Shown in pieces: positions 46,622 to 59,940 of a stretch of 64,000 bases of DNA. A program made the position numbers and the translations under genes. How positions within the stretch are numbered: the first letter of the stretch is position 1; each line of letters opens with the position of its first letter. This DNA is from Verrucomicrobium sp. (GTDB taxonomy: Bacteria; Verrucomicrobiota; Verrucomicrobiia; Methylacidiphilales; UBA1321). The stretch lies in contig JAFIGT010000033.1 of NCBI GenBank assembly GCA_017849585.1, forward strand, positions 62,001-126,000, read 5' to 3'. The notes below the pieces were generated by a model. It worked only from the letters and a program-made list of their open reading frames with translations. It was not told the DNA's origin and ran no database searches.

Positions 46622-49600
46622 TTATTCTGTGATGATTTCCAACTGCTGATCGATGATTTGCTCGGTGACCCGGTTAATGGCGATGTGCAGCCAATAACGC
46701 TGCTCCCCCTCGACGATAAAATCCTCGAGCCGGGTGGCGTCCGGAGGGTATTTTCCGGTCTGCGCGACAAGATCAATCATCAGGTTCCAGGTGCCTACCT
46801 GTCCCAGGTTTGCAAGAGTTCGGAGGAGGTTTTCGCGTTCGGATTTGAGTTTGATCGATTTGAAGTCCGCAAGCCCATCACTGGAATGGAAGAGCCGCAC
46901 GACGAGATCTGACTTGTTCGACAAGGGACCCTGCGCCGTATTCGCGGGATCGGTAAAGGTGACCCAGCTCTTGGCGATGTCCGCGGGTTGAGTGGTGGTG
47001 TTACTGAGGGCAACGGCGAGGACGGTCGCATTGCGGGTGTTCAGATCGAGACGACCCGAGGTCGGTTCGTTTTCGGAGGATTCGTAGAGGCAGAACAATT
47101 CGAGAAGTCCGGAGTCGGGGCTGTCCTCGGTGAAGAAATTCAGCGTGCGCCAGGGATTATCGCGGAGGACTTTTCCCAGTTCGACGAGGCTTTGGAACGG
47201 GCGATCGAGATGAATGGGGCGATCCTTGCTGTTGAGATAGGGATTTCCCAAGCCGGGGCCCTGATCGGAGGGGGAACCGTAGAGTCCGCTATCGGCCAGT
47301 CGGGCGATGCCGTCGGGATCTTTGATGACGGTATTTCCCGAGTAGGAATTTGTGGCTATTTCCTTGCCGCTATTGCGGCAGAGTGTGGCTGGGAAGTAGG
47401 AGCTGTTGGCGCCTTTGTTGGCGATGTTGGCAGGCACTCCTTGCATTTGGGGGTTTGCCGTTGTCCTAGGTTCTATTCCACTCGCATTGGTTTGGTTCCA
47501 GTCCGCTCCGCCATAGCCGCTCGTGGCAAATTTGGATTCGTCGCTGGCGCCGGGGAGATTGCTCAACAGGGGAGCTGTACTCCAGAGAGGTTTAAAGCCG
47601 ACGTTTCTGGCCTGGGGCGTGCCTGCGGCGTTGGATGAGGACGTATTGCCGTTCAACCAGCGGACAAAAATGGCTGGGATAATCCGGATGGTGAGTGGAT
47701 CTATTTTCTGATAGTGGAGCGAACCGTTTTCTCCCCAGACATCGACTTGGTCAAACATGCCATTGGCGACTTGTTGCGCGTTTGCCAGTAGAGTTAGGTC
47801 GACATCATTGGGGAATGTTGGTTTTCTCCAAGGATTATGGCCGCTATTGAATGCCTTGGTGGGGTCTGAGACCCACGTGGAACGATCGGCTGTATTCATG
47901 CCGAAGAGAAAACTGTAGGGGACCCAGACTCCGGGGTTTTGTTCAAACTCCAGCAGTACTTGTCCATCCGTCATGCGCGTGACAACTTCGCCCTTGTTGC
48001 GGAGAGTTTTTTTGGCTTCCGGCGTCAAATCGGCGTAGCCCGTCGTCTGCGGGAAGTCGGAGGGTTTATTCGATCCGGCCAAGACCTTGACGATGCCTTC
48101 TCTCAGCGTGGTCAGCTCAAGGGGCATGTCTTTGAGCCGGAGTCCGACGTACTGTTTGCCTTCCAAAACGGTGTTCGCGCCACCCAAGGGTGGGGTTTTC
48201 TCCCATGCTCCGCCGCTGGCTGATCCGCCAGATAAAGTACCACTGACATCTTCAGCGGCAACGAGCGTGGCTTCGGCAAAACCTCTGGCACCACGGCCCG
48301 GACTATCGGACCTAAGCTGGATGTTGGTCATGGGACTGAAAGGGACCGTGGTGGTTTCTCCATAAATACCGATGCCTTCTGGTGAGGATGGATTACCTTG
48401 AAGTGTGGTGGCCCAGTTGCAGCGGGTCATTATCGTTCCTCCAAAGGACAGGCGTACTTTTGGGATGTCTCCGCTAATCGCCCCGGCGTTTTGATGTGGA
48501 TTCCAGAGTCCGGGCAGGGAATAGAAGGAGAGACTGGCTCCCGAGTTGGCTATGGCACAGATCGTTTTGAAGACATTGACTTGGGGGAGATTTTCCACGC
48601 CGCAGATTTGATAGTAGACGGAATAGACGGGGCATTCGATGACGGTCGGGTACGAGTCGTCGTCATATTGATCAATGATATTGGCCGCGATCCGGCAGAT
48701 TTGCAGGGTCGATTTCAATTCGTATGTTTTGGGGTCGAGCTGTTGATTCGCTCCTCCATAGTAGCCGAGAGAGCCGGTTAAGATTCCGGCTTGGATCAGT
48801 TCAAAGAAATTGGGTTCCCGCCGTGGGCTTTCGGCGGCGATTTGATCGAGGGTGGAAAGGATCGGTTTGGCGCTGGAGCTGGAGGAGCCGACATATTTCC
48901 AGACTTTGGCTCCGGGTGTAATGTTAGATCCGGACCACTCGAGCCCAAAGCACGCGCGGATGGCTTCCGCACCGACTCCTGCTTTAGGGCCGTTCCGCGT
49001 CAGCCATTTCAATCTTTCGAGAGGAAAACGTTTCCGCACCACGGGATCACCGGCAACGACCTTGTACATATAGCGCGTCCCGTCGCTGTGATAGGAAGTA
49101 ATCTGGTCATCCGCATTGACGCGGACCAGAGGGACAAAGCGATTGGTGGACCCCGTGGTATAGGCGAGGTCCTTATATTTAAACAGCCCTGCGGCGGGAG
49201 CGTTGGTGGCCGGCCGCCATGTGGGCATGCCTGATTCGCGGGAGAAGGTCGTGAGGTAGGGCAGGGCGTTGGTCGAAATGCCGACGGAGCCGCTTTGCGC
49301 GGCTTTGATCAGATCCTGTCGACCGATAAATGTGGTGTCGCCGCTGGCCGTCTTGCGAAAGCCGTTGGTGCTGGCGAATGAGGTGAGGTGGGTGATGTAG
49401 GTATCGGGCGACTGTGAGGTCGTGGCATTGCGCCACGCGACCAGTTGATCTGGGTCGATGAGTTTGGTGCCGGAACTGTCCTTGAGTTGCGTCAGATCGA
49501 CTCCCGCGAGTGTCCCTTCGATCTGGCGGACTTGCTCGGGAGTCATGGACGTGGGATGCCCTGCCACCGTGATATCGAGCAACCCGCCGACATCGTAAAT

Positions 49601-50278
49601 GGCGTAGGCCACGCGACCGATCACGTAATTGGTGTTGGCGTAGGTGGGGTTATTGAGTGTTCCATTCACGGCGGCGCCGAACTGAAGACCCGCGGCATTG
49701 GTCAGGCCGTTGCGGGTGATCAACGACCAGTATGGAGTCGTGTTGGGGGAAGGGAATTTTCCCAGCTGCGGTTTGCTCCATCGATTGGTGGTGATGGCTC
49801 GTCCGTTACGCGACTTCACGGTGGAACTCAGTGTCGTGGACGTCATCAAGCTCGTATAGAGGGAGCCTTGATAAGCGGGTTGGTTGGTGCTGATCCGGAT
49901 GAGCGACGGCATCGCCGCGTTGGTGCCGCAGCGGGCCGGTACTTGCGCAGCGCTGGTGATATTGGTGTGAATAGGACGATTCACATAGAGGTTGTTGGGT
50001 CCCATGTCGGGAAGGGAATCCTTGCGCATTTCTTTGCGTAGATCCTCGACGAGTACCTGAAGCGCTCCGAGTGCGAGATTTTTGGCCTTGGCGGACTGGC
50101 TGTAGGATGCGGTGGCCGCCTTGTCGTGCTGCATCATCGCGATGAAGGTCACCAGCATGATGGACGCGAGCGTGACCATGGTCAGGGTGATGAGCAGCGC
50201 CATCCCCTGTTGTGGAGCGGGAGAATGATCCCGAAAATGTCGACGAGATTCAGCGAATGGGCGTGGAGAGTGTGACAT
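46622..50278 (-). CDS. Verru_Chthon cassette protein A
   Basis: A 1218-residue protein from the ATG at 50278, overlapping the end of the upstream C gene by 29 bases. After a polar leader it has a prepilin-like hydrophobic segment (about 27-50, GMALLITLTMVTLASIMLVT) and a long helical stretch, then a very large extracytoplasmic domain rich in Asn, Thr, Gly and Pro. It ends with HIAINRVTEQIIDQQLEI. This length, N-terminus and position with three pseudopilin genes match the A member of the Verru_Chthon cassette known from Verrucomicrobium and Chthoniobacter. The role is unknown; a PilX/GspK-like tip protein of a pseudopilus is the best guess. Confidence 0.85.
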   Translation of the reverse strand: MSHSPRPFAESRRHFRDHSPAPQQGMALLITLTMVTLASIMLVTFIAMMQHDKAATASYSQSAKAKNLALGALQVLVEDLRKEMRKDSLPDMGPNNLYVNRPIHTNITSAAQVPARCGTNAAMPSLIRISTNQPAYQGSLYTSLMTSTTLSSTVKSRNGRAITTNRWSKPQLGKFPSPNTTPYWSLITRNGLTNAAGLQFGAAVNGTLNNPTYANTNYVIGRVAYAIYDVGGLLDITVAGHPTSMTPEQVRQIEGTLAGVDLTQLKDSSGTKLIDPDQLVAWRNATTSQSPDTYITHLTSFASTNGFRKTASGDTTFIGRQDLIKAAQSGSVGISTNALPYLTTFSRESGMPTWRPATNAPAAGLFKYKDLAYTTGSTNRFVPLVRVNADDQITSYHSDGTRYMYKVVAGDPVVRKRFPLERLKWLTRNGPKAGVGAEAIRACFGLEWSGSNITPGAKVWKYVGSSSSSAKPILSTLDQIAAESPRREPNFFELIQAGILTGSLGYYGGANQQLDPKTYELKSTLQICRIAANIIDQYDDDSYPTVIECPVYSVYYQICGVENLPQVNVFKTICAIANSGASLSFYSLPGLWNPHQNAGAISGDIPKVRLSFGGTIMTRCNWATTLQGNPSSPEGIGIYGETTTVPFSPMTNIQLRSDSPGRGARGFAEATLVAAEDVSGTLSGGSASGGAWEKTPPLGGANTVLEGKQYVGLRLKDMPLELTTLREGIVKVLAGSNKPSDFPQTTGYADLTPEAKKTLRNKGEVVTRMTDGQVLLEFEQNPGVWVPYSFLFGMNTADRSTWVSDPTKAFNSGHNPWRKPTFPNDVDLTLLANAQQVANGMFDQVDVWGENGSLHYQKIDPLTIRIIPAIFVRWLNGNTSSSNAAGTPQARNVGFKPLWSTAPLLSNLPGASDESKFATSGYGGADWNQTNASGIEPRTTANPQMQGVPANIANKGANSSYFPATLCRNSGKEIATNSYSGNTVIKDPDGIARLADSGLYGSPSDQGPGLGNPYLNSKDRPIHLDRPFQSLVELGKVLRDNPWRTLNFFTEDSPDSGLLELFCLYESSENEPTSGRLDLNTRNATVLAVALSNTTTQPADIAKSWVTFTDPANTAQGPLSNKSDLVVRLFHSSDGLADFKSIKLKSERENLLRTLANLGQVGTWNLMIDLVAQTGKYPPDATRLEDFIVEGEQRYWLHIAINRVTEQIIDQQLEIITE

Positions 50279-51047
50279 AGCGTTGGTAAGTCTTGATACC
50301 GCTGGCGAGTTTACTCGGATACCTCGTCCAATCGAGTTGGCTTGAGAGGTATCCATCCCACGTCGATTTGACATCGATGCCGCTCTGCGCGGCAGTGGTC
50401 AGCTTTTGCCGCAGATCGCGAATCTGGTCGGACGAGAGCTGCTTGAGGCAGGGATCGTCGATCACGGCCAGATTAAGGCTGATGGCGCGAAGTGGATTGT
50501 CCACAGAGACGGTGTATTGGCGTGACGCGGTGCCGTCCTTGAAATGGAAAATCGCCTCGAATCCGACGACCCCTTCGATGGTGTCGCGCTGGGTGAGCGC
50601 AGGAAGGCTGGACCCCGGTGGGGCGCTAAAGCGGACAGTCTGCGCAGAGCTGGCCCAGGTTGCGCCGGCATCCCCCCGTTGCAGAGTGCTCTTTTCCGAA
50701 GTGGAATCGATCTTGTAGGAAACCAGTGAGATTTGCCGCGGGCTGCCGCTGATGATGCCGGCTTGTTGGGTGTAGAATTCAAAATTGGAATTGGAAAATG
50801 CCGGCAAGTCCGAGCGTAACAAGATACCGTTGAGATCGCGCGCCATCGCATCCAGCATGCAGCGGGCCTTGGTAAAATTATTGGCCCGTTGCAGGCCGGT
50901 ATTGCAGGTCAGGCTCGTGGAAAAAAGAATTGTGGAAAGGGAGATGACGATCATCGCGAGGATGGCCATGGCGACGGACATTTCCACCAGAGTGAAGGCT
51001 CTCCGGGGAGTCGTGTCAGCGCAGGGGAATGTAGGTGAGCGTTTCAT
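50250..51047 (-). CDS. Verru_Chthon cassette protein C (pseudopilin)
   Basis: A 265-residue protein from the ATG at 51047, overlapping the preceding gene by 32 bases. Prepilin leader ending in RRA, then FTLVEMSVAMAILAMIVI with Glu5, and a type II secretion J-like extended domain. Order within the cassette (D, B, C, A in transcription order) matches the described gene set. Probably a minor pseudopilin. Confidence 0.83.
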   Translation of the reverse strand: MKRSPTFPCADTTPRRAFTLVEMSVAMAILAMIVISLSTILFSTSLTCNTGLQRANNFTKARCMLDAMARDLNGILLRSDLPAFSNSNFEFYTQQAGIISGSPRQISLVSYKIDSTSEKSTLQRGDAGATWASSAQTVRFSAPPGSSLPALTQRDTIEGVVGFEAIFHFKDGTASRQYTVSVDNPLRAISLNLAVIDDPCLKQLSSDQIRDLRQKLTTAAQSGIDVKSTWDGYLSSQLDWTRYPSKLASGIKTYQRYVTLSTPIR

Positions 51048-51510
51048 AACGGAATGCCTGGGGATTGGATGGATTTTGTTGGGCCGGCCAGGAAAGCATG
51101 AGATAGACTTGCGCCACTTTTTCGCCAGTGAGGAAGTTCGTTCCCGCCTGGCAGGTGGCCATGAAGGTATCGAAGCCGGGGCTGTTCGTGAGGTAACCGG
51201 ATGCCGTGATGTACGAAGTGGAGGAGCTGCCATTAAGGTAGGCCGGTCCATAAGCACGGTTCAGAACCGGAATGGCCAGATTAGCCATTTGATTCGTGGA
51301 AGAGGTCGGGCAGATCCGCCGCATCTCGAGCATTTTTTCGGCTAGATTCACCGCACTGATTCGTCCTTCGGACTCCCGATTGATGCGAAGTCCCGCAGTG
51401 AAAAGTCCAATCACCGACATCAAGGCAAACGCACAGATGCCGAGGGCCATCACCACTTCCACAAGACTGAAGGCGCGCGCGCTGAGGTTGCGAGAGGAAA
51501 AAAGGGGCAT
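51016..51510 (-). CDS. Verru_Chthon cassette protein B (pseudopilin)
   Basis: A 164-residue protein from the ATG at 51510, 32 bases after the D gene. It has a prepilin leader (MPLFSSRNLSARA), the FSLVEVVMALGICAFALMSV helix and the downstream EKMLEMRR and tail domain of a GspI-like minor pseudopilin. In the cassette it is member B. No separate peptidase or assembly ATPase is encoded nearby, so it must use shared machinery. Confidence 0.83.
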   Translation of the reverse strand: MPLFSSRNLSARAFSLVEVVMALGICAFALMSVIGLFTAGLRINRESEGRISAVNLAEKMLEMRRICPTSSTNQMANLAIPVLNRAYGPAYLNGSSSTSYITASGYLTNSPGFDTFMATCQAGTNFLTGEKVAQVYLMLSWPAQQNPSNPQAFRYETLTYIPLR

Positions 51511-51542
51511 GAAAACTCTCCTGCTCTTCGAAGGTTGCCGTG

Positions 51543-52241
51543 CTAGGGACGATATACTTGAGTCATCCCGGTGAAGCCATTGATGCGGACCACTACGACG
51601 TTGCGACTGCTTTTGTCTTGGGCCGCCACTTTGGATTGCAGGCCGAACTCGACGAGATTGATCGCTCTTCCGGTTTGATTGCGCACGCCCCCATTCGGGG
51701 TGAATTGCAGCATGCGTGTAAAACGAACGGGAGAGGTAGAAGTCGAACCGGGAATCTTGACGGAAAAGGCCATGCCATTCGAGCACAGCGCATTTTCCAT
51801 GTTGCTCGCCGGGTTGGGCGGTTGGTCGAAAAGCGAGCGAAGCGAAGTGTCTCCAGCCTCTTTGAGCTCGACTTGCTTAAAAGTTTCCACGCGATGAATC
51901 AGGCTGACGGAGGCGTTGGGGATCAGCCCGAGGTCCGGGGTGGACTCTGTCAAGTCCGTGCCGTCGTTCGATGCCGCGATGACCATGGACATCTTCAGAT
52001 TGGTGGTGTCCTGATAAAAGCCGACCCAGACGTAAGTATTTTGCGCGACGGCATACTCGCGAGCCTGCTCGAGCTGGCTTGCCACCGAGGTCGCTGTTTG
52101 CGTGACCAAGCCGCTCCGATTCAAGGAGGTCAATGCGGGGAGAGAGGCGACTGCGAGCATGGCAATGAGACAAATCACGACCAAAAGTTCAACCATGCTA
52201 AAGGCGAGGCGCGACAGCCGAAGAGGCGTTTTTGAGTTCAT
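51543..52241 (-). CDS. Verru_Chthon cassette protein D (pseudopilin)
   Basis: A 232-residue protein from the ATG at 52241, the first gene of the cassette. It has a short leader (MNSKTPLRLSRLA), then FSMVELLVVICLIAMLAVA with the Glu5 residue, and QLEQAREYAVAQNTYVWVGF typical of GspH-like pseudopilins. It begins the leftward unit D-B-C-A, with a 19-bp palindrome 45 bases upstream of its start. Confidence 0.83.
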   Translation of the reverse strand: MNSKTPLRLSRLAFSMVELLVVICLIAMLAVASLPALTSLNRSGLVTQTATSVASQLEQAREYAVAQNTYVWVGFYQDTTNLKMSMVIAASNDGTDLTESTPDLGLIPNASVSLIHRVETFKQVELKEAGDTSLRSLFDQPPNPASNMENALCSNGMAFSVKIPGSTSTSPVRFTRMLQFTPNGGVRNQTGRAINLVEFGLQSKVAAQDKSSRNVVVVRINGFTGMTQVYRP

Positions 52242-52679
52242 TGTATACACAAAGTAATCCTCTATTTATATAAAAGCAAGCTATACATTAAAGATAATCT
52301 TTAATTGAGGCGTGCCTCTGACTCGCTCGCCAATGTTGGAGCTAGTCGATGAATGAAATGATTTTATCTAGATGGGCTTGGTGTGCAAATTAACGCGTAA
52401 GTTGATTGTAATAAGCGTATTAAATAATAAAAAATGATCCCTATGCTGAGGACGCGTATAAATACACGAGTAGGCATTAAAATGAATGCGGATTAGGCAG
52501 AAAACCCAATATTGCGCTTTGCTGTAGAAACCGAGCTCCCAATCTGCAGGAAATTCGCGCTAAATCTGAAATAAAGATAATTATAAAATATAATGTTGAT
52601 TTTTTGATCGGTATAACGCATATTGAGAATGTAGCTAGGAGGACGAAAGCTGGAATTAATACAAAACGAAAAAGAAACT
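52242..52679. other. AT-rich intergenic control region between cassette and PEP-CTERM gene
   Basis: This 438-base divergent gap is clearly more A+T-rich than its surroundings. It holds the palindrome at 52287-52305, presumably the promoters of both flanking units, and a TAGGAGGA string at 52636-52643 about 37 bases before the rightward ATG at 52680. That is too far for a normal ribosome-binding site. No gene-like frame was seen. Confidence 0.55.
52287..52305. promoter_or_regulatory. 19-bp palindrome upstream of Verru_Chthon cassette
   Basis: Perfect arms ATTAAAGAT and ATCTTTAAT around a single A, 45 bases before the first cassette gene. No T tract follows on either side, and it stands at a promoter position, so a regulator-binding site is likely. 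Confidence 0.45.
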
Positions 52680-54413
52680 ATGAGATCATCAATCATAACG
52701 CGTATGACAAAAGGGCTGGTTGCCGTGGGGGTACTGCTGGCGGTTGGTTCCCTGCAGGCACAACAACTGAGCTGGAGTGGCGGATCAAGCACGAACTGGC
52801 AGGACCCTGCCAATTGGGGTGGCACCAATGTTCCAGATGTTTCGGGAGAGTATGCCAACTTTAATTATGTGGGAACGCCGACACTGCCTTTACTGTTGAA
52901 TGGCGATGTCACGCTTGGGGCGGTAAGTTCACCGACTTCGCCTGCTCTACGCTATGCGCAAGGTACTTCTCTGCTCACGATCAGTGGGCAGAACACTCCG
53001 AGTAATAATACGCTAACGCTACAGGCGGGTGGTGGTACTTATGTTACTGTAGATGGCGGCGGAGCGGGGCAATCGCCGAAAGTGGTTTTGGACAATATGA
53101 ATGTGGTCTTCAATAATGCATCGTTAAGCACGGGGATCATCGGGGTTGGCCGTTCAGGTGTGTTTACGCTGGGATCGGCGACGAATGTGACTATAGCCAA
53201 CGGTTCGAGGCTACTTATTCAGGCTGTGCGTGATGGTGATGCTGGAACGGTGAATATCAACAGTGCGTCGTTCAATGCGGGGAATCCTGGAATGTCTACG
53301 GGGGTTCCTCCAGTGCCTTTTGCGTTTTTGACCATTGATCAAGGCACGGTGAACTGGGGTGTGGGTAGTTTCTCGACTACTGCAGCGACTCCGACATTGG
53401 CTGTTACGGGCAAGGCCAAGTCTAGCGTGGTGAGTCCGGCGACATTGAACTTTAAGTCGAATTATAGCTCAGGCACGACGAGTGGCGTCATTCGTGCGGG
53501 GTCTGGCGGTGTGAGTTCTGCTGTGGTCGTATCGGCGGATAACGGTGTAAAGGTAACCGATACGGTGGAGGTGGCCGGTTATGGCAATACGGGAGTGACG
53601 AACTCGGTGACCATTGGTGTGACGGCGGCAAGTTCTACGGCCACATTCGGCGGTGTGCACATCGAGCAGTACAACAATGAGAACACTGTGGGCAATACCA
53701 CGACGGTTTCTTTCAAGGCTGCTTCCGATAGTACGGCGGTCTTCACGGGATCGGTGCAGGGATGGCGCCACAGCGGCATCACGACGGGTACGACCGTTTT
53801 TACCAAGACGGGTGCTGGAACGGTGATTTTCGCGGGGAACGATACGACAATGTGGCATGATGGTAGCTACGCGGCAGCAGCCGGCGGTGCGTTTGATATT
53901 CAGGAGGGCAAGCTCGTACTCAAGTCCACGGCCTCGTACACAGGGGCATCCGCGATGTACATCAACTCGGTTGTTCGTAATGGGGCGACGCTTGAACTCG
54001 GGGCTTCCAACCAGATCACCAATACGGCCAGCCTGACGTTGAACGGCGGCACATTCGATGCGAATAATTTCGCTGAAACGTTGGGTGAGCTGATTGTCTC
54101 GGCCAATTCGTTCCTCTCGATTGACGCAGGGGCGTTGCTTGCCTTTGGATCGAGCCAGTCGGATTGGGGTAGCTTCACGCTGGACATCACCGGAACGTTG
54201 GATGCCACCGGGATTCGCTTTGGATCGAGCGATGCCGGTTTGCTGGCGAGTAATCTGGATAACCTTCTCTACAATGGTCAGGCGGGCCTGATCTCGATCA
54301 ACGCGAGTGGTTATTTGACGGCTATTCCTGAACCCTCGTCTGCGGCATTTCTGATTGCTGGCATGCTTGGTTTAGGTTGGGTGACTCGTCGCCGTAGCGC
54401 GGTGAGTCTGTAG
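52680..54413 (+). CDS. PEP-CTERM autotransporter-like beta-helix protein
   Basis: A 577-residue secreted protein with a signal peptide (about 9-28). Its start after cleavage (QLSWSGGSSTNWQDPANWGG) is typical of autotransporter-associated beta-strand repeat proteins. The body is a Gly/Thr/Ser/Val-rich repeat region expected to form a right-handed beta-helix; one repeat shows TTVFTKTGAGTVIFAGN. The C-terminus has AIPEPSS, a hydrophobic helix (AFLIAGMLGLGWV) and RRRSAVSL, a PEP-CTERM sorting signal. Likely a large surface or matrix protein handled by an exosortase encoded elsewhere. Followed by a strong hairpin. Confidence 0.87.
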   Translation: MRSSIITRMTKGLVAVGVLLAVGSLQAQQLSWSGGSSTNWQDPANWGGTNVPDVSGEYANFNYVGTPTLPLLLNGDVTLGAVSSPTSPALRYAQGTSLLTISGQNTPSNNTLTLQAGGGTYVTVDGGGAGQSPKVVLDNMNVVFNNASLSTGIIGVGRSGVFTLGSATNVTIANGSRLLIQAVRDGDAGTVNINSASFNAGNPGMSTGVPPVPFAFLTIDQGTVNWGVGSFSTTAATPTLAVTGKAKSSVVSPATLNFKSNYSSGTTSGVIRAGSGGVSSAVVVSADNGVKVTDTVEVAGYGNTGVTNSVTIGVTAASSTATFGGVHIEQYNNENTVGNTTTVSFKAASDSTAVFTGSVQGWRHSGITTGTTVFTKTGAGTVIFAGNDTTMWHDGSYAAAAGGAFDIQEGKLVLKSTASYTGASAMYINSVVRNGATLELGASNQITNTASLTLNGGTFDANNFAETLGELIVSANSFLSIDAGALLAFGSSQSDWGSFTLDITGTLDATGIRFGSSDAGLLASNLDNLLYNGQAGLISINASGYLTAIPEPSSAAFLIAGMLGLGWVTRRRSAVSL

Positions 54414-54451
54414 GTTTTGTCCCCAGGGCCGGCGGTGATGGTCCGCTGAAT

Positions 54452-54620: not shown

Positions 54621-56474
54621 GTGACGAATACAATCCGCAGTCTTGGTCCATGGTCGCTGCACTTGGCAGTACTCTTTTTTATCGAACTGGGGATGATTTG
54701 TTCCGGTGGTGCGCCGGTGAATGAATTTGTGGCGGAAGATTTTTCATCTGGGCTAGTGAGCGGTTGGATTGTGGGAACAGGTTCGAATTCCGTTACGCTT
54801 GGCAATGGCGATGTGTTTGCGGTCGGTTCGATGACGTATAGTGGGACTTCGGTAATGACGAAAGCTCTGCAGGTGCAGGACTACAGCCCTTACGCCACGT
54901 CAAGCAGTCCAATTCGTTTTCATTCACAAAATGCGTACAACGTTCTGGCGACAGCGAACAAGATTGTGCAGCTCAATGTGGATCTCTACATCGACAGCGC
55001 GATTACCTCGCTGAATCCGAATGCCAATTTGGCGAGGAGTAAAACAGCGTCGGCTTCATCCGTCGAAGCTTACAGCAGTAACTTCGCGGCCAATGCCGTT
55101 GACGGAGTGCGAACCGATTCGAGCAAATGGACCGGATCGAATACGGACCCGTCCTGGTTCATGGTCGATCTGGGAGACCTTTACAATGTCAACAAGGTCA
55201 CTCTTTATTGGGAGCCCTACGCGTACGGAATCAATTACGAGATTCAAACCAGTACGGATGCTTCGAATTGGACCACGCAAGCGGCGGTCACGGGTAATTC
55301 GACTGTGGGTACCGATGCGCCGCTGACGTACACCTTTTCTGCCGCGAGTGCCCGCTATGTGCGCATGTACGGCACATCCCATAACAGCCATGCCGGGGGA
55401 TGGGGTTTTTCGCTATACGAATTTGAAGTTTATGGCTCGTCGGATACAGTCACCACCACCACCACTACGAGCGGCTATGCCGTCACCCGGATGGGGATAT
55501 TTGACACAACGACTTCCGGCTATCTTTCTACCAGAAATAGCATTTCTCTGAGTGTCGATGCGAATTCGTCGACCAACAACATCGCGATTGTGGCCTCGAG
55601 TTCCAGCGGCGCACTGCGGAACGTGGCGACCTTCTCCAGGACGGCTTCGACTTTGCTGGGATTACATACTTACGGGCTTCAAGTCGATTATCGACAGAGC
55701 ACGACAGCTCCGATTGTCAGCGCGTACTGCGATGGGACTTTTATCGGTCAGGCTGTGCTCAATGGTTTGGAAGGAGTGAAGCTCGGAGGTTCAGGGACCA
55801 CCCAGGCCTCGGCGGTCCGGGTTCTCGTCGAGGCGACTTCTACGGCGACGAGCGGGGCTAACATCTGGCTGGATAACGTCAGTCTTTCAGCGTTCGATGC
55901 AGCCTCAATCGTGATTGCCGCGCCATCAGCGACCGCGCCGGCGATTCAATCCGCCGTGTCGAGACGCGCGCACGGTAGTCTGGGCGACTACGATATTCCA
56001 ATCAACTTCCTCTCTGGAAGCTCCGCTCCGTCAAGTACGACTGTGGAGTGCCGCTCGGGTGGGCAGTCGAATATTGTGGTCACGTTCGACAAGGCGATTA
56101 CAACGGCTACAGCCACTCTCGTATCAGGTACGGCGACCATCGGAACGCTGTCGTACAATGCGGCGGCGAAAACCGTTATCATTCCGCTCACTGGCGTGAC
56201 TAACGTGCAGAAAGTCCAGCTTCGCTTGACGAATATTCAGTCCGCCGATGGTGGGTCTCTGCCCAGCGTCTATCTGGCCTTTGGTTATCTGATCGGGGAT
56301 GTGACGGGTGATGGATATGTGACGTCTCCTGATGCGGTTCAGGTGCGCAACGGAACCGGACTACAGGCCGGGCAAGCCGGGTACAATTTACGGGCAGACA
56401 TCAACGCGGACGGATACATCACCTCTCCCGATGCGGTTCAAGTGCGAAACAATACGGGAAAGCAATTGCCTTAA
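54621..56474 (+). CDS. Secreted F5/8C (discoidin) and dockerin protein
   Basis: About 617 residues from a GTG at 54621, which gives a good signal peptide (LHLAVLFFIELGMICSGGA). An ATG at 54450 would add 57 residues encoded partly in the hairpin and is disfavoured. Order: beta domain half 1 (about 35-130), F5/8 type C domain (about 133-270; ANLARSKTASAS, VDLGDLYNVNKVTLYW, RYVRMYG), beta domain half 2 (about 285-430), an Ig-like domain (about 435-555) and a C-terminal type I dockerin with two calcium loops (DVTGDGYVTSPD and DINADGYITSPD). No catalytic residues seen: probably a glycan-binding scaffold component. Next gene encodes a cohesin-like PEP-CTERM protein. Confidence 0.8.
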   Translation: MTNTIRSLGPWSLHLAVLFFIELGMICSGGAPVNEFVAEDFSSGLVSGWIVGTGSNSVTLGNGDVFAVGSMTYSGTSVMTKALQVQDYSPYATSSSPIRFHSQNAYNVLATANKIVQLNVDLYIDSAITSLNPNANLARSKTASASSVEAYSSNFAANAVDGVRTDSSKWTGSNTDPSWFMVDLGDLYNVNKVTLYWEPYAYGINYEIQTSTDASNWTTQAAVTGNSTVGTDAPLTYTFSAASARYVRMYGTSHNSHAGGWGFSLYEFEVYGSSDTVTTTTTTSGYAVTRMGIFDTTTSGYLSTRNSISLSVDANSSTNNIAIVASSSSGALRNVATFSRTASTLLGLHTYGLQVDYRQSTTAPIVSAYCDGTFIGQAVLNGLEGVKLGGSGTTQASAVRVLVEATSTATSGANIWLDNVSLSAFDAASIVIAAPSATAPAIQSAVSRRAHGSLGDYDIPINFLSGSSAPSSTTVECRSGGQSNIVVTFDKAITTATATLVSGTATIGTLSYNAAAKTVIIPLTGVTNVQKVQLRLTNIQSADGGSLPSVYLAFGYLIGDVTGDGYVTSPDAVQVRNGTGLQAGQAGYNLRADINADGYITSPDAVQVRNNTGKQLP

Positions 56475-56497
56475 AAAACAAAGCGGAAATTATCCTC

Positions 56498-57094
56498 ATG
56501 AAAATAATCTATAATGCCCTCTTTTCACTGGCCCTGACATTGGTTGCAGGCTGGATGTTGCAGTCGACCTCGGCTGCGACATTGGCCGTGGTGGATGCGG
56601 CCAATCCGGGGCAGTCGACGATTCTGATTACTCCCGGGAGCACTTTTTCGGTAAGCGTCATTGTCTCGGGTTTGACCTCGGCCAGTCCCGTTGATTCGTT
56701 TGACTTGCAACTGGCGGCATTGCCAACAGGGTTAACACTGAACGCGATCACGTCACCCCTTTCCTCGAGCGGCTGGTTTGTCAGTTCCAATGTGGGGGAT
56801 AACTCGAGCATGGGGTATGCGAGCTCCACAGGTTATGATTTTTACACGGATTCCGTGCTGCTGAATTACTCGCTGACGGCGGACATCTCATTGGCTGCAG
56901 GAGTTGTTGGTGAGCTGACTTTTTCCGCCGAGGCGGCCAAGAACGCCCTTTACGATTCGAATGGGCTGGTGATTGCCATGAACAAGATTGGACTGCAAGT
57001 CACGGCCATACCGGAACCGACTTGTGCCGGGTTACTGCTGATCGGGTTGACTGGATCTCTCGTCTATCGTCGCAAGAGTGTCCAACGTCGCTGA
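56498..57094 (+). CDS. Cohesin-like PEP-CTERM protein
   Basis: A 198-residue protein with a signal peptide (about 6-27). One beta-sandwich domain (about 30-165) shows the cohesin-like pattern: ITPGSTFSVSVIVSGL, VDSFDLQLAALPTGLTLNAI and, near the end, AAGVVGELTFSAEA. The tail AIPEPT, LLLIGLTGSLVY and RRKSVQRR is a PEP-CTERM signal. Directly preceded (23 bases) by the dockerin protein and followed (23 bases) by a large hydrolase. Inferred role: a surface-anchored cohesin that recruits dockerin-bearing proteins. Cohesin identity is by pattern only; another beta-sandwich family is possible. Confidence 0.75.
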   Translation: MKIIYNALFSLALTLVAGWMLQSTSAATLAVVDAANPGQSTILITPGSTFSVSVIVSGLTSASPVDSFDLQLAALPTGLTLNAITSPLSSSGWFVSSNVGDNSSMGYASSTGYDFYTDSVLLNYSLTADISLAAGVVGELTFSAEAAKNALYDSNGLVIAMNKIGLQVTAIPEPTCAGLLLIGLTGSLVYRRKSVQRR

Positions 57095-57117
57095 GTTTAT
57101 TTAACCGTGGAGGCTTG

Positions 57118-59940
57118 ATGAATCTGATTCGATGGATCTTCGTTGCGGTAATTTCTCTTTTATTGATGGAGAAACCGGTCTTCGGTCTTACCACTTTGTT
57201 TTCAGATTCGTTCGAAGGTGTCGCATCGAATGCGTCGGCGTGGCGATATGGAACCGGGTCGATTGCCTCGGCCCTTGCCGCAGGAGATTCCTTTTCCATC
57301 AACACCAGCAGCGCTCTCTTGGTGGTATCGGATGCCGCTCCCTATTCCTCAGGAAGTCCTGTGGTTATTCATTCCATATCGGGTTCTAATTTCTATGCCA
57401 CTGCCGATAAAGTACTGCAGTTGAATATGGAGCTCACGATCACCAATTCGGCGGTGGTCTATACGCTCGGTTTATTTGATTCCAGTTCGGCAGCCTATGC
57501 TGTCGGGGCAAATTCCATTGCGCTCAGTATTATTCCCGGGGCGACGTCAAACAATGTCACCCTTTATGCCACCGGAAGTTCGGGTGCGGTGGTTTCGACG
57601 GTGACCACTACGGTGACGCAATCCCGGTTGATTGGGACGCACAACTATGCGCTTCAGGTCGATTATATATCGGGTACGACAAGCCCTGTGGTACGTGCCT
57701 ATTCGAATGGTGTCCTGTTGGCGACGCTGACCTTCACGGCCAATGATGGAATTCATCCTCAAGCGAGCGGGGCGACGCAGGGCACGGCGGTTCGCTCGTT
57801 TGTCCGTGGCGTGTCGACGGCGGGTTCGGGTGCCTCATTTGCGCTGAAGCGAGTGAATTTGTATTCGTATACCCCGGGGGCTTTATTGAGTCAGCTTCAG
57901 GCATCGCGCGCGGTGAACCGGGGCGTCTTTGGCCAGAACATTCTGGCTGGTGAGGAAAAGTATTATTATTCCATGTACGGAAACGGCTTTTGGAATCCCG
58001 CCACGATGACTTACTCGTCGATCCTGGTGAACAAGGCCAAGAGTGAACTGGGAAGCGTGACTTCGCTGCGGTATCCGGGAGGGGGAATGGCCTGTCGTTT
58101 CGATTTTCGCAAGACCATTGGACCGGTGAGCGATCGCGTGGATGCAACGGATACTGACGGCAGCGGCAATGTGACGGTCAAAGGCAAATGGTCGTTCGGT
58201 TTGGATGAGTTTATGTCATTGTGCAAAAGTTTTGGAGCGGAGCCAATGTACACGGCGCCGGACGTGCTTTTGCCTGCGGCGCAGATGCCCGAGCATGTGG
58301 CCAATCTGGTGGAATATCTCAACGCTCCCGCAACGGCGGGAAATCCGTGGGCGCTCAAGCGGCAGACCAACACCGGGGGCAATGCCTCGGGATATGGGGT
58401 CAGATATTTCGAGATGGGGAACGAAACGTATTATCTGGAAAGCGAGATGAACGCGCTGACCTATTCTGCCTATGTAAGGGATGGCGGTTGGGCGATGCGG
58501 GCCGTCGACCCCTCGGTGCAGATCGGTGTAGTGGCCAAAGAGAGCGGCCGTGAGTTGCAGAATGATTGGGATGCGACGGTGTTGGAGAATACTGGGAGTG
58601 TTGTTGATTTTGTGATTCTCCATATTTATCAGCCCTTCTCTTCCACCGGAGACAAGGTGTATTCGGACCCCATCAAAGTGGAGAAAACAGCCATGGCGAT
58701 GGGCGATTATCTCGAATATCAGCTTAAAGCGACTCACGACACAATTGAAGTGCTGGCAGGAAAGCGGTTGCCGTTGGCGATTACGGAATTTAACGCCCAG
58801 TTGGTGAATAAGACGGTGGGTGTTCCCACCTATCGGCTATCGTATGCCTTGGGCATGCAAATGTCCGACATGCTGCGCGTTTTTCTGAAGCCCGAATATG
58901 GAGTGATTACGGCAAACTACTGGCAGATGTTTAGCAACTCCTATGGCCCGCTGAGTTACAATTTATATGCCACGGCGACGGCATCTACGACCTTCCGGGA
59001 GTATCCAGCCTATCCTGTCTTCAAATTGTGGGGTCAACATTTCAAGGGATCGACGCTGCTTACGACTACGGTCAGCGGACCTCAGTCGAGCTATCCCGGT
59101 TACCGGGGGATTGCGCCCGCCATGGGGAGCACTTATCAGCCGGAAGCTTATTTGGGTTCGATGGATCTGACATCAACTATATCGGGTCAGATAGCTTCCA
59201 TTAATACAGATCTCGGCGGAGCCGGGACAGCCACCGCGACCATGAATGGTGACGCCTTGCAAATAGTCTTTAATGGATATGACTCGAATCGCGGTGGATC
59301 TCTGGGAAATTGGCCGCAGATCGCCACCTACACCTATTCTTCACCCGGGCGCTACGATTATGTTCTCTCCTACGAAGCCCGGTATGTGGCTGGTGCGGCA
59401 TCGCCTTCCCGACCGTTGTGGATCACGGCGGCAAGCGAAGGGGATACGACATCCAATCTCACGATGGATCCGATCGTTAATTCGAGTTATCAACCTTTCT
59501 ACGGATGGTACCGCTCGGAGATGAGTTCCAATCAGGCAACGGTTACGCTCAATATTTTGAGCGGATCGACGGCGACCACGAGTGTAACGTTTTCGGGGAC
59601 GCTGCAGGTCCGCAACATGGTGATGGATCTCTACCGACAGGAGTCATTGCCGGCTCATTCGATCATCTCCAGTGCGGCCAGCATTTCCAGTGATGGGAAT
59701 ACGTACTACATCATCGTGGCCAACAAAAGTAACTATGCCGTTCCTGCGACGCTGTCATTCAGCGGATTCACGGGAAGCTCGGCAAAATATTGGCAGGTCA
59801 ATGCGCCGACCACTTGGAAGGCGGATCTGGATACGGCAGTATGGACCGTTTCCGGATCGGCTTTCGCTCTCAGCGGAGGCGCTTCTGCGGCGTATACATT
59901 TCCTCCGCATTCCATGACGGCGATCGAGGTGTATAAATAA
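57118..59940 (+). CDS. Large secreted GH51/GH39-like glycoside hydrolase
   Basis: A 940-residue protein from the ATG at 57118, preceded by GTGGAGG. It has a signal peptide (WIFVAVISLLLMEKPVFG). An N-terminal beta domain (about 22-240) is homologous to the split domain of the dockerin protein. The barrel (about 250-640) has an acid/base Glu in FEMGNETYY (E436) and a probable nucleophile in AITEFNAQL (E557), the clan GH-A arrangement seen in GH51 alpha-arabinofuranosidases and GH39. The C-terminal 290 residues are beta-rich and CBM6-like (RYDYVLSYEARYVAG), then a final Ig-like domain. It has no dockerin of its own. Likely arabinan- or xylan-directed; substrate uncertain. Confidence 0.8.
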   Translation: MNLIRWIFVAVISLLLMEKPVFGLTTLFSDSFEGVASNASAWRYGTGSIASALAAGDSFSINTSSALLVVSDAAPYSSGSPVVIHSISGSNFYATADKVLQLNMELTITNSAVVYTLGLFDSSSAAYAVGANSIALSIIPGATSNNVTLYATGSSGAVVSTVTTTVTQSRLIGTHNYALQVDYISGTTSPVVRAYSNGVLLATLTFTANDGIHPQASGATQGTAVRSFVRGVSTAGSGASFALKRVNLYSYTPGALLSQLQASRAVNRGVFGQNILAGEEKYYYSMYGNGFWNPATMTYSSILVNKAKSELGSVTSLRYPGGGMACRFDFRKTIGPVSDRVDATDTDGSGNVTVKGKWSFGLDEFMSLCKSFGAEPMYTAPDVLLPAAQMPEHVANLVEYLNAPATAGNPWALKRQTNTGGNASGYGVRYFEMGNETYYLESEMNALTYSAYVRDGGWAMRAVDPSVQIGVVAKESGRELQNDWDATVLENTGSVVDFVILHIYQPFSSTGDKVYSDPIKVEKTAMAMGDYLEYQLKATHDTIEVLAGKRLPLAITEFNAQLVNKTVGVPTYRLSYALGMQMSDMLRVFLKPEYGVITANYWQMFSNSYGPLSYNLYATATASTTFREYPAYPVFKLWGQHFKGSTLLTTTVSGPQSSYPGYRGIAPAMGSTYQPEAYLGSMDLTSTISGQIASINTDLGGAGTATATMNGDALQIVFNGYDSNRGGSLGNWPQIATYTYSSPGRYDYVLSYEARYVAGAASPSRPLWITAASEGDTTSNLTMDPIVNSSYQPFYGWYRSEMSSNQATVTLNILSGSTATTSVTFSGTLQVRNMVMDLYRQESLPAHSIISSAASISSDGNTYYIIVANKSNYAVPATLSFSGFTGSSAKYWQVNAPTTWKADLDTAVWTVSGSAFALSGGASAAYTFPPHSMTAIEVYK

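Follow-up and report, generated by a model that had tools for sequence, protein, structure and literature searches.

A cohesin-fold protein with a PEP-CTERM tail as the probable surface anchor of a neighbouring dockerin protein in a lake-type verrucomicrobium

Introduction

Can a cohesin that carries an exosortase sorting signal fix a dockerin protein to the surface of a Gram-negative bacterium? The question is posed by three consecutive genes (54621-56474, 56498-57094 and 57118-59940) in a window of 64,000 nucleotides, the whole stretch of DNA analysed here (G000:C14:62001-126000), which belongs to the 4.79 Mb genome of a lake-type verrucomicrobium. The initial annotation had described them as genes for a dockerin protein, a cohesin-like PEP-CTERM protein and a GH51/GH39-like hydrolase, spaced by 23 bases each and possibly forming an exosortase-anchored cellulosome-like system, with the caveat that the cohesin call was based on sequence pattern only. 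Its nearest relative with a name is a congener, Verrucomicrobia bacterium Tous-C9LFEB (G002), a MAG from a freshwater reservoir for which the name Candidatus Verrucococcus diazotrophicus has been proposed and in which 218 glycoside hydrolases are reported (PMC5673642).

Results

The locus and its three genes

Both intergenic gaps measure 23 bp, as the initial annotation had stated, and the three-gene set (54621-59940) is syntenic in G002. The features of the locus are as follows.

52680..54413, + strand: PEP-CTERM protein of the upstream gene, weakly matching a passenger repeat; its position is syntenic in the relative
54621..56474, + strand: secreted dockerin protein with a signal peptide, a LamG-like beta-sandwich into which an F5/8 type C domain is inserted, then an SRRxHG module and the C-terminal dockerin
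55047..55391, + strand: F5/8 type C / galactose-binding-like domain, CBM32-like (PF00754, 69 bits; PF22633, 72 bits)
55953..56294, + strand: SRRxHG...ECRSGG module directly before the dockerin, present in the two dockerin proteins of this genome and in relatives
56295..56450, + strand: type I dockerin with two calcium-binding loops in near-symmetric repeats (PF00404)
56498..57094, + strand: protein of 198 aa with a cohesin fold by prediction, a signal peptide and a PEP-CTERM tail; probable anchor/receptor
57008..57076, + strand: PEP-CTERM sorting signal, with PEP motif, hydrophobic stretch and basic end (TIGR02595, residues 171-193)
57118..59940, + strand: secreted GH51-like hydrolase with an N-terminal LamG-like domain (NF051901 and PDB GH51 matches)

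The upstream PEP-CTERM gene is probably a unit apart from the dockerin set; promoter and terminator scans gave nothing above shuffles. On the other side lie convergent genes for two Gfo/Idh/MocA oxidoreductases, a xylose-isomerase-like protein and a LacI-type sensor domain, and because of these neighbours the locus as a whole probably serves sugar use. Elsewhere in the window, the region 46622-52250 contains pseudopilin-like genes whose products have N-termini of the type IV prepilin kind and, on the minus strand, a 1250-aa ORF with no match in Pfam.

The C-terminus of the first protein is a real type I dockerin, as had been proposed: residues 559-610, counted from the GTG start codon at 54621 (an alternative upstream ATG lies at 54450), match PF00404 with 32.3 bits (E=1.2e-7, cut-off 22.9), and the two canonical calcium loops are DVTGDGYVTSPD and DINADGYITSPD. 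The signal peptides of this protein and of the cohesin-like protein were assigned by eye. The beta-sandwich of the dockerin protein, which has no Pfam name, is read as LamG-like, and the nearest solved relatives of the F5/8 type C domain are the CBM32 modules of glucanase/chitosanase (4zy9, E=2e-19). The SRRxHG...ECRSGG module, kept across families and likewise without a Pfam name, is placed like an X module, of which it is a possible analogue. Between this genome and G002, all 66 of 66 dockerin residues are identical at a dS of 0.52 (dN/dS 0.00), with dN/dS values of 0.08 for the whole dockerin protein and 0.15 for the cohesin-like protein.

The second protein terminates in the sequence AIPEPTCAGLLLIGLTGSLVYRRKSVQRR, in agreement with the sorting signal claimed for it; TIGR02595 scores 18.8 bits in the genome search and 15.0 in hmmscan, where the cut-off is 16. 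The tripartite tail, in a genome that encodes two exosortases (TIGR02602, above cut-off) and about 88 PEP-CTERM proteins, places it in the PEP-CTERM class. As for the hydrolase, the GH51-like half of its earlier designation holds, with matches to PDB GH51 arabinofuranosidases (E about 4e-12) in which a GNE motif aligns with the acid/base, whereas no evidence for GH39 was obtained; its NF051901 score is 77 bits where the curated GH51 arabinofuranosidase family requires 625. Its LamG-like N-terminal domain and the LamG-like domain of the dockerin protein are paralogues, with 37% identity over 151 residues, and scans of the hydrolase revealed neither a dockerin nor a PEP-CTERM signal.

Cohesin identity of the partner protein

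The caveat attached to the cohesin call was right, since the PF00963 search of 56498-57094 is empty. Pfam and NCBIfam scans are likewise without a cohesin, a genome-wide PF00963 search returned zero matches, and phmmer against the PDB gave a spurious antibody match only. By sequence profile the protein is thus no cohesin, whereas by four other lines (a Pfam cohesin in a sister genome, two fold models and group scores in hhalign) it probably is one. The first line is its positional counterpart in another member of the genus (G001, L055:7051-7668), which matches PF00963 with 38.3 bits (E=1.8e-9, cut-off 24.1), carries a PEP-CTERM tail and stands immediately downstream of the single dockerin gene found in that genome. 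The second is an AlphaFold model of 56498-57094, low in confidence (mean pLDDT 53) and built from three sequences of which none is recognised as a cohesin; its best Foldseek match in the PDB is 2xdh (E=2.4e-6), the non-cellulosomal cohesin from Archaeoglobus fulgidus, and matches 1-22 in VIA are all cohesins, with Z up to 10.1. A predicted cohesin jelly-roll fold is thereby supported, at pLDDT 53. The third line is a model of a second, independent group of partners (group B), in which the cohesin part lies mostly at pLDDT 70-90 and matches 1-16 are all cohesins. Finally, in hhalign against a cohesin profile the partners as a group outscore 28 other PEP-CTERM proteins encoded in the same genome (Mann-Whitney p about 1e-5 with the Pfam-positive partner left out); the group of 56498-57094 itself reaches E=0.0016 at a probability of 16%. 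A profile of the window-type partner has clear matches only in G000 and G002 among 286 genomes of the class, so that no deep alignment is available for it. There is a precedent in Ruminococcus, where divergent cohesins overlooked by InterProScan were found only via AlphaFold2 (PMC11557425). In a read-through construct (L121:3824-4612) modelled as a complex, the cohesin is folded and the dockerin unfolded (pLDDT <50).

These data also define the most obvious alternative, namely that the PEP-CTERM protein is an ordinary matrix beta-sandwich, its jelly-roll simply a shared one and its adjacency to the dockerin gene a matter of co-regulation and not of binding. The empty PF00963 search fits this alternative, as does the abundance of PEP-CTERM proteins in the genome, and pilin and integrin domains, which share the cohesin jelly-roll, reach Z values of 7.5-8.5, only 1.5-2 lower than the cohesins. 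Against it stands the true Pfam cohesin at the same position in G001, together with the recurrence of the gene pair.

Recurrence of the dockerin-partner pair

The genome contains exactly two PF00404 dockerin genes, so that the count of further dockerins anticipated in the initial annotation yields one other, with the same partner gene behind it. This second gene (L003:6612-10313), whose long product contains PA14 and Calx-beta domains, is followed after 4 bp by a PEP-CTERM paralogue of 56498-57094 (39% identity, E=1.6e-17). Both dockerin genes of the genome (2/2) therefore have a cohesin-like PEP-CTERM paralogue 4-23 bp downstream. Chance adjacency is unlikely even for two pairs, because PEP-CTERM genes make up only roughly 2% of the genome: with about 88 of them among an estimated total of roughly 4,200 genes, a rate taken from this genome, the chance is ∼2% per neighbour and about 4e-4 for such a neighbour at both dockerin genes, relatives not counted.

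In family f1, six of six PF00404 genes are followed, at a spacing of 4-35 bp, by a gene for a secreted PEP-CTERM protein of ∼200 aa, and the same order occurs outside this family in G073 (twice), G190, where the dockerin protein is rhamnogalacturonan-lyase-like, and G222. As a blind test, a profile made only from the partner domain of group B, stripped of signal peptide and PEP-CTERM, was run against 305 genomes of the class. It recovered five further genomes, four of which (G550, G538, G517 and G565) have an adjoining upstream gene that ends in an SRxHG module and a dockerin, two of these four dockerins scoring below the Pfam cut-off. A group B partner-type protein stands without a neighbouring dockerin gene in G011 (L174 4698-5402), a genome that is 65% complete. 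When contigs were scanned with four dockerin modules, three loci emerged, of which two lie in Tous-C9LFEB and the third in a Chthoniobacterales MAG. Counting orthologues once, the pair is found at about eleven independent loci in four families, a count that leaves aside G176 (L134) from another class, where a PEP-CTERM gene comes after a dockerin gene. Elsewhere in the phylum, dockerins and Pfam cohesins without PEP-CTERM occur as neighbouring or overlapping genes, or fused. The constant order and short spacing over so many loci, the four of five new genomes with an upstream dockerin in the blind test, and these neighbours and fusions all argue against the ordinary matrix protein, which we regard as unlikely.

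Arrangements elsewhere in the phylum take several forms. At L104 2210-6145 and L114 2416-6420 a single chain of about 1,315 aa contains both domains, the dockerin ahead of the cohesin; about a dozen genomes share this architecture, all from one genus that is Akkermansia-like by an inferred name. At L100, L113, L117 and L154, a Pfam cohesin gene without PEP-CTERM follows the dockerin gene at -4 to +5 bp. Some dockerin proteins have a weak cohesin just N-terminal of the dockerin.

Outside f1, dockerins without an adjoining partner are found in G015, in G016 and for most of G222. Such partnerless dockerins, and the single chains of the Akkermansia-like genomes, would fit a reading in which the dockerin binds in trans or within its own protein (e.g. 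to the SRRxHG module) and the cohesin-like protein has another ligand. This is very unlikely for the present genome, in which no other cohesin candidate was found and both dockerins adjoin a partner.

A probable tether and not a cellulosome

The set is a non-cellulosomal cohesin-dockerin pair in its organization, the dockerin and cohesin-like genes being adjacent. It is not a cellulosome, because there is one cohesin per protein, the genome has two dockerins and the hydrolase carries none. A search with PF00963 and our own profiles found no multi-cohesin scaffoldin in the genome, only the two single-module partner proteins, and with two dockerins there is no large complement of dockerin-bearing carbohydrate-active enzymes. 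Of the exosortase-anchored cellulosome-like system first proposed, the neighbouring pair of dockerin and cohesin-fold PEP-CTERM protein and the exosortases stand, whereas the multi-enzyme scaffold does not, and 'cellulosome-like' was too strong a term for a locus whose hydrolase has neither dockerin nor PEP-CTERM signal. A cellulosome-like complex in which the cohesin protein is a scaffold block that collects hydrolases, the GH51-like enzyme included, does draw on the glycan context (the F5/8 type C domain, the GH51-like enzyme, and the sugar oxidoreductases and LacI-type sensor nearby), on the 218 glycoside hydrolases of G002 (PMC5673642) and on G538, G550 and G222, where multiple dockerin proteins surround a single anchor. 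Given the two dockerins, the single cohesin per partner and the dockerin-free hydrolase of the present genome, we consider it highly improbable here. In some relatives a single anchor may be shared by multiple dockerin proteins.

In G222 (L108, L140-L142), 11 dockerins and one cohesin-like PEP-CTERM anchor were found. L173 284-9000 and L175 1-7860 each show one cohesin-like PEP-CTERM gene amid several SRxHG-dockerin proteins.

The reading that we favour, at a probability of roughly 0.7, is a two-component surface tether in which the PEP-CTERM cohesin holds the lectin-like dockerin protein. Both proteins would be exported by Sec, and one of the two exosortases would recognize and process the cohesin protein by its PEP-CTERM tail, as is assumed for PEP-CTERM proteins in general. 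We infer that the dockerin, with calcium in both loops, plugs specifically into the single cohesin module. The lectin-like protein would thereby stay at the cell envelope or within the extracellular matrix, anchored without a sorting signal of its own because the cohesin binds it, and may serve the GH51-like hydrolase by binding glycan through its F5/8 type C and LamG-like domains. Each dockerin protein of this genome would have a dedicated cohesin, at 1:1 in two pairs, and dockerin and PEP-CTERM would be alternative C-terminal routes to the same place.

The most direct sign of such an exchange comes from a single case, G005, in which the dockerin is carried by a TIGR03118 protein (302 bits). 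The other two TIGR03118 proteins found in the phylum have PEP-CTERM ends, ..GLFGSITPVPEPSTY.. in G155 and ..GLFGRLTAVPVPEPGTT.. in G199. At the equivalent point the G005 protein reads ..GLFGKLAVPPTL.. and continues into an SRxxG module and the dockerin, and a cohesin-like PEP-CTERM gene lies 9 bp downstream. Judged from these sequences, a dockerin together with a PEP-CTERM cohesin appears to substitute for the PEP-CTERM tail. A wider proposal, which we hold tentatively and at slightly less than even odds, is that exosortase-sorted cohesins are general receptors that extend the PEP-CTERM route to untagged proteins, the SRxHG-dockerin (calcium-dependent docking) and PEP-CTERM (direct attachment) being interchangeable in Verrucomicrobiota. 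If this is true, surface proteins could therefore be added or exchanged after secretion.

Discussion

The pair at 54621-57094 and its relatives suggest that dockerin proteins can be attached to the cell surface in a new way. Non-cellulosomal cohesin-dockerin pairs are already known, and what is new is the version with a PEP-CTERM-tailed cohesin; a combination of PEP-CTERM with dockerin or cohesin was not found in the open-access papers searched, where absence is not proof. According to one account, no function is known for cohesins and dockerins that lie outside the cellulosome (PMC5244752), and a cohesin with an exosortase signal beside its dockerin would give them a concrete, testable function. 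It would add PEP-CTERM/exosortase to SLH domains and sortase as a further anchoring route, and surface display in Gram-negatives could draw on it as a new, orthogonal cohesin-dockerin set. For PEP-CTERM proteins, whose roles are mostly not known, it would mean a task as receptors.

A close parallel is the AF2375/AF2376 pair of Archaeoglobus fulgidus, whose genes we take to be adjacent: cohesins and dockerins are few there too, a scaffoldin is lacking, and 2xdh is the top Foldseek match of 56498-57094. We know of no PEP-CTERM tail on the Archaeoglobus proteins, which are archaeal and whose neighbouring proteins are not a lectin and GH51 set. ANME archaea likewise combine non-cellulolytic use of cohesins and dockerins with an exosortase-like system in one cell, dockerin/cohesin proteins being numerous and archaeosortases present (PMC9012536, PMC5244752); in the accessible portions of these sources, one of which, the only paper found to mention both dockerin and exosortase, lists them separately (PMC5244752), a sorting-signal cohesin beside a dockerin gene is not described. 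The anchoring scaffoldins of Acetivibrio (SLH) and Ruminococcus (sortase-linked) similarly fuse a cohesin to a surface-attachment device that receives dockerin proteins (PMC11557425). Those scaffoldins employ S-layer domains or LPXTG sortase in Gram-positives, whereas the present genome has PEP-CTERM/exosortase in a Gram-negative phylum, a single cohesin and no primary scaffoldin. With the surface proteins of the PEP-CTERM/exosortase (EpsH) system, finally, the partner protein shares the tripartite C-terminal signal and a genome with TIGR02602 exosortases; the difference is that the tagged protein here is probably a cohesin, and could extend sorting to a second protein that bears a dockerin.
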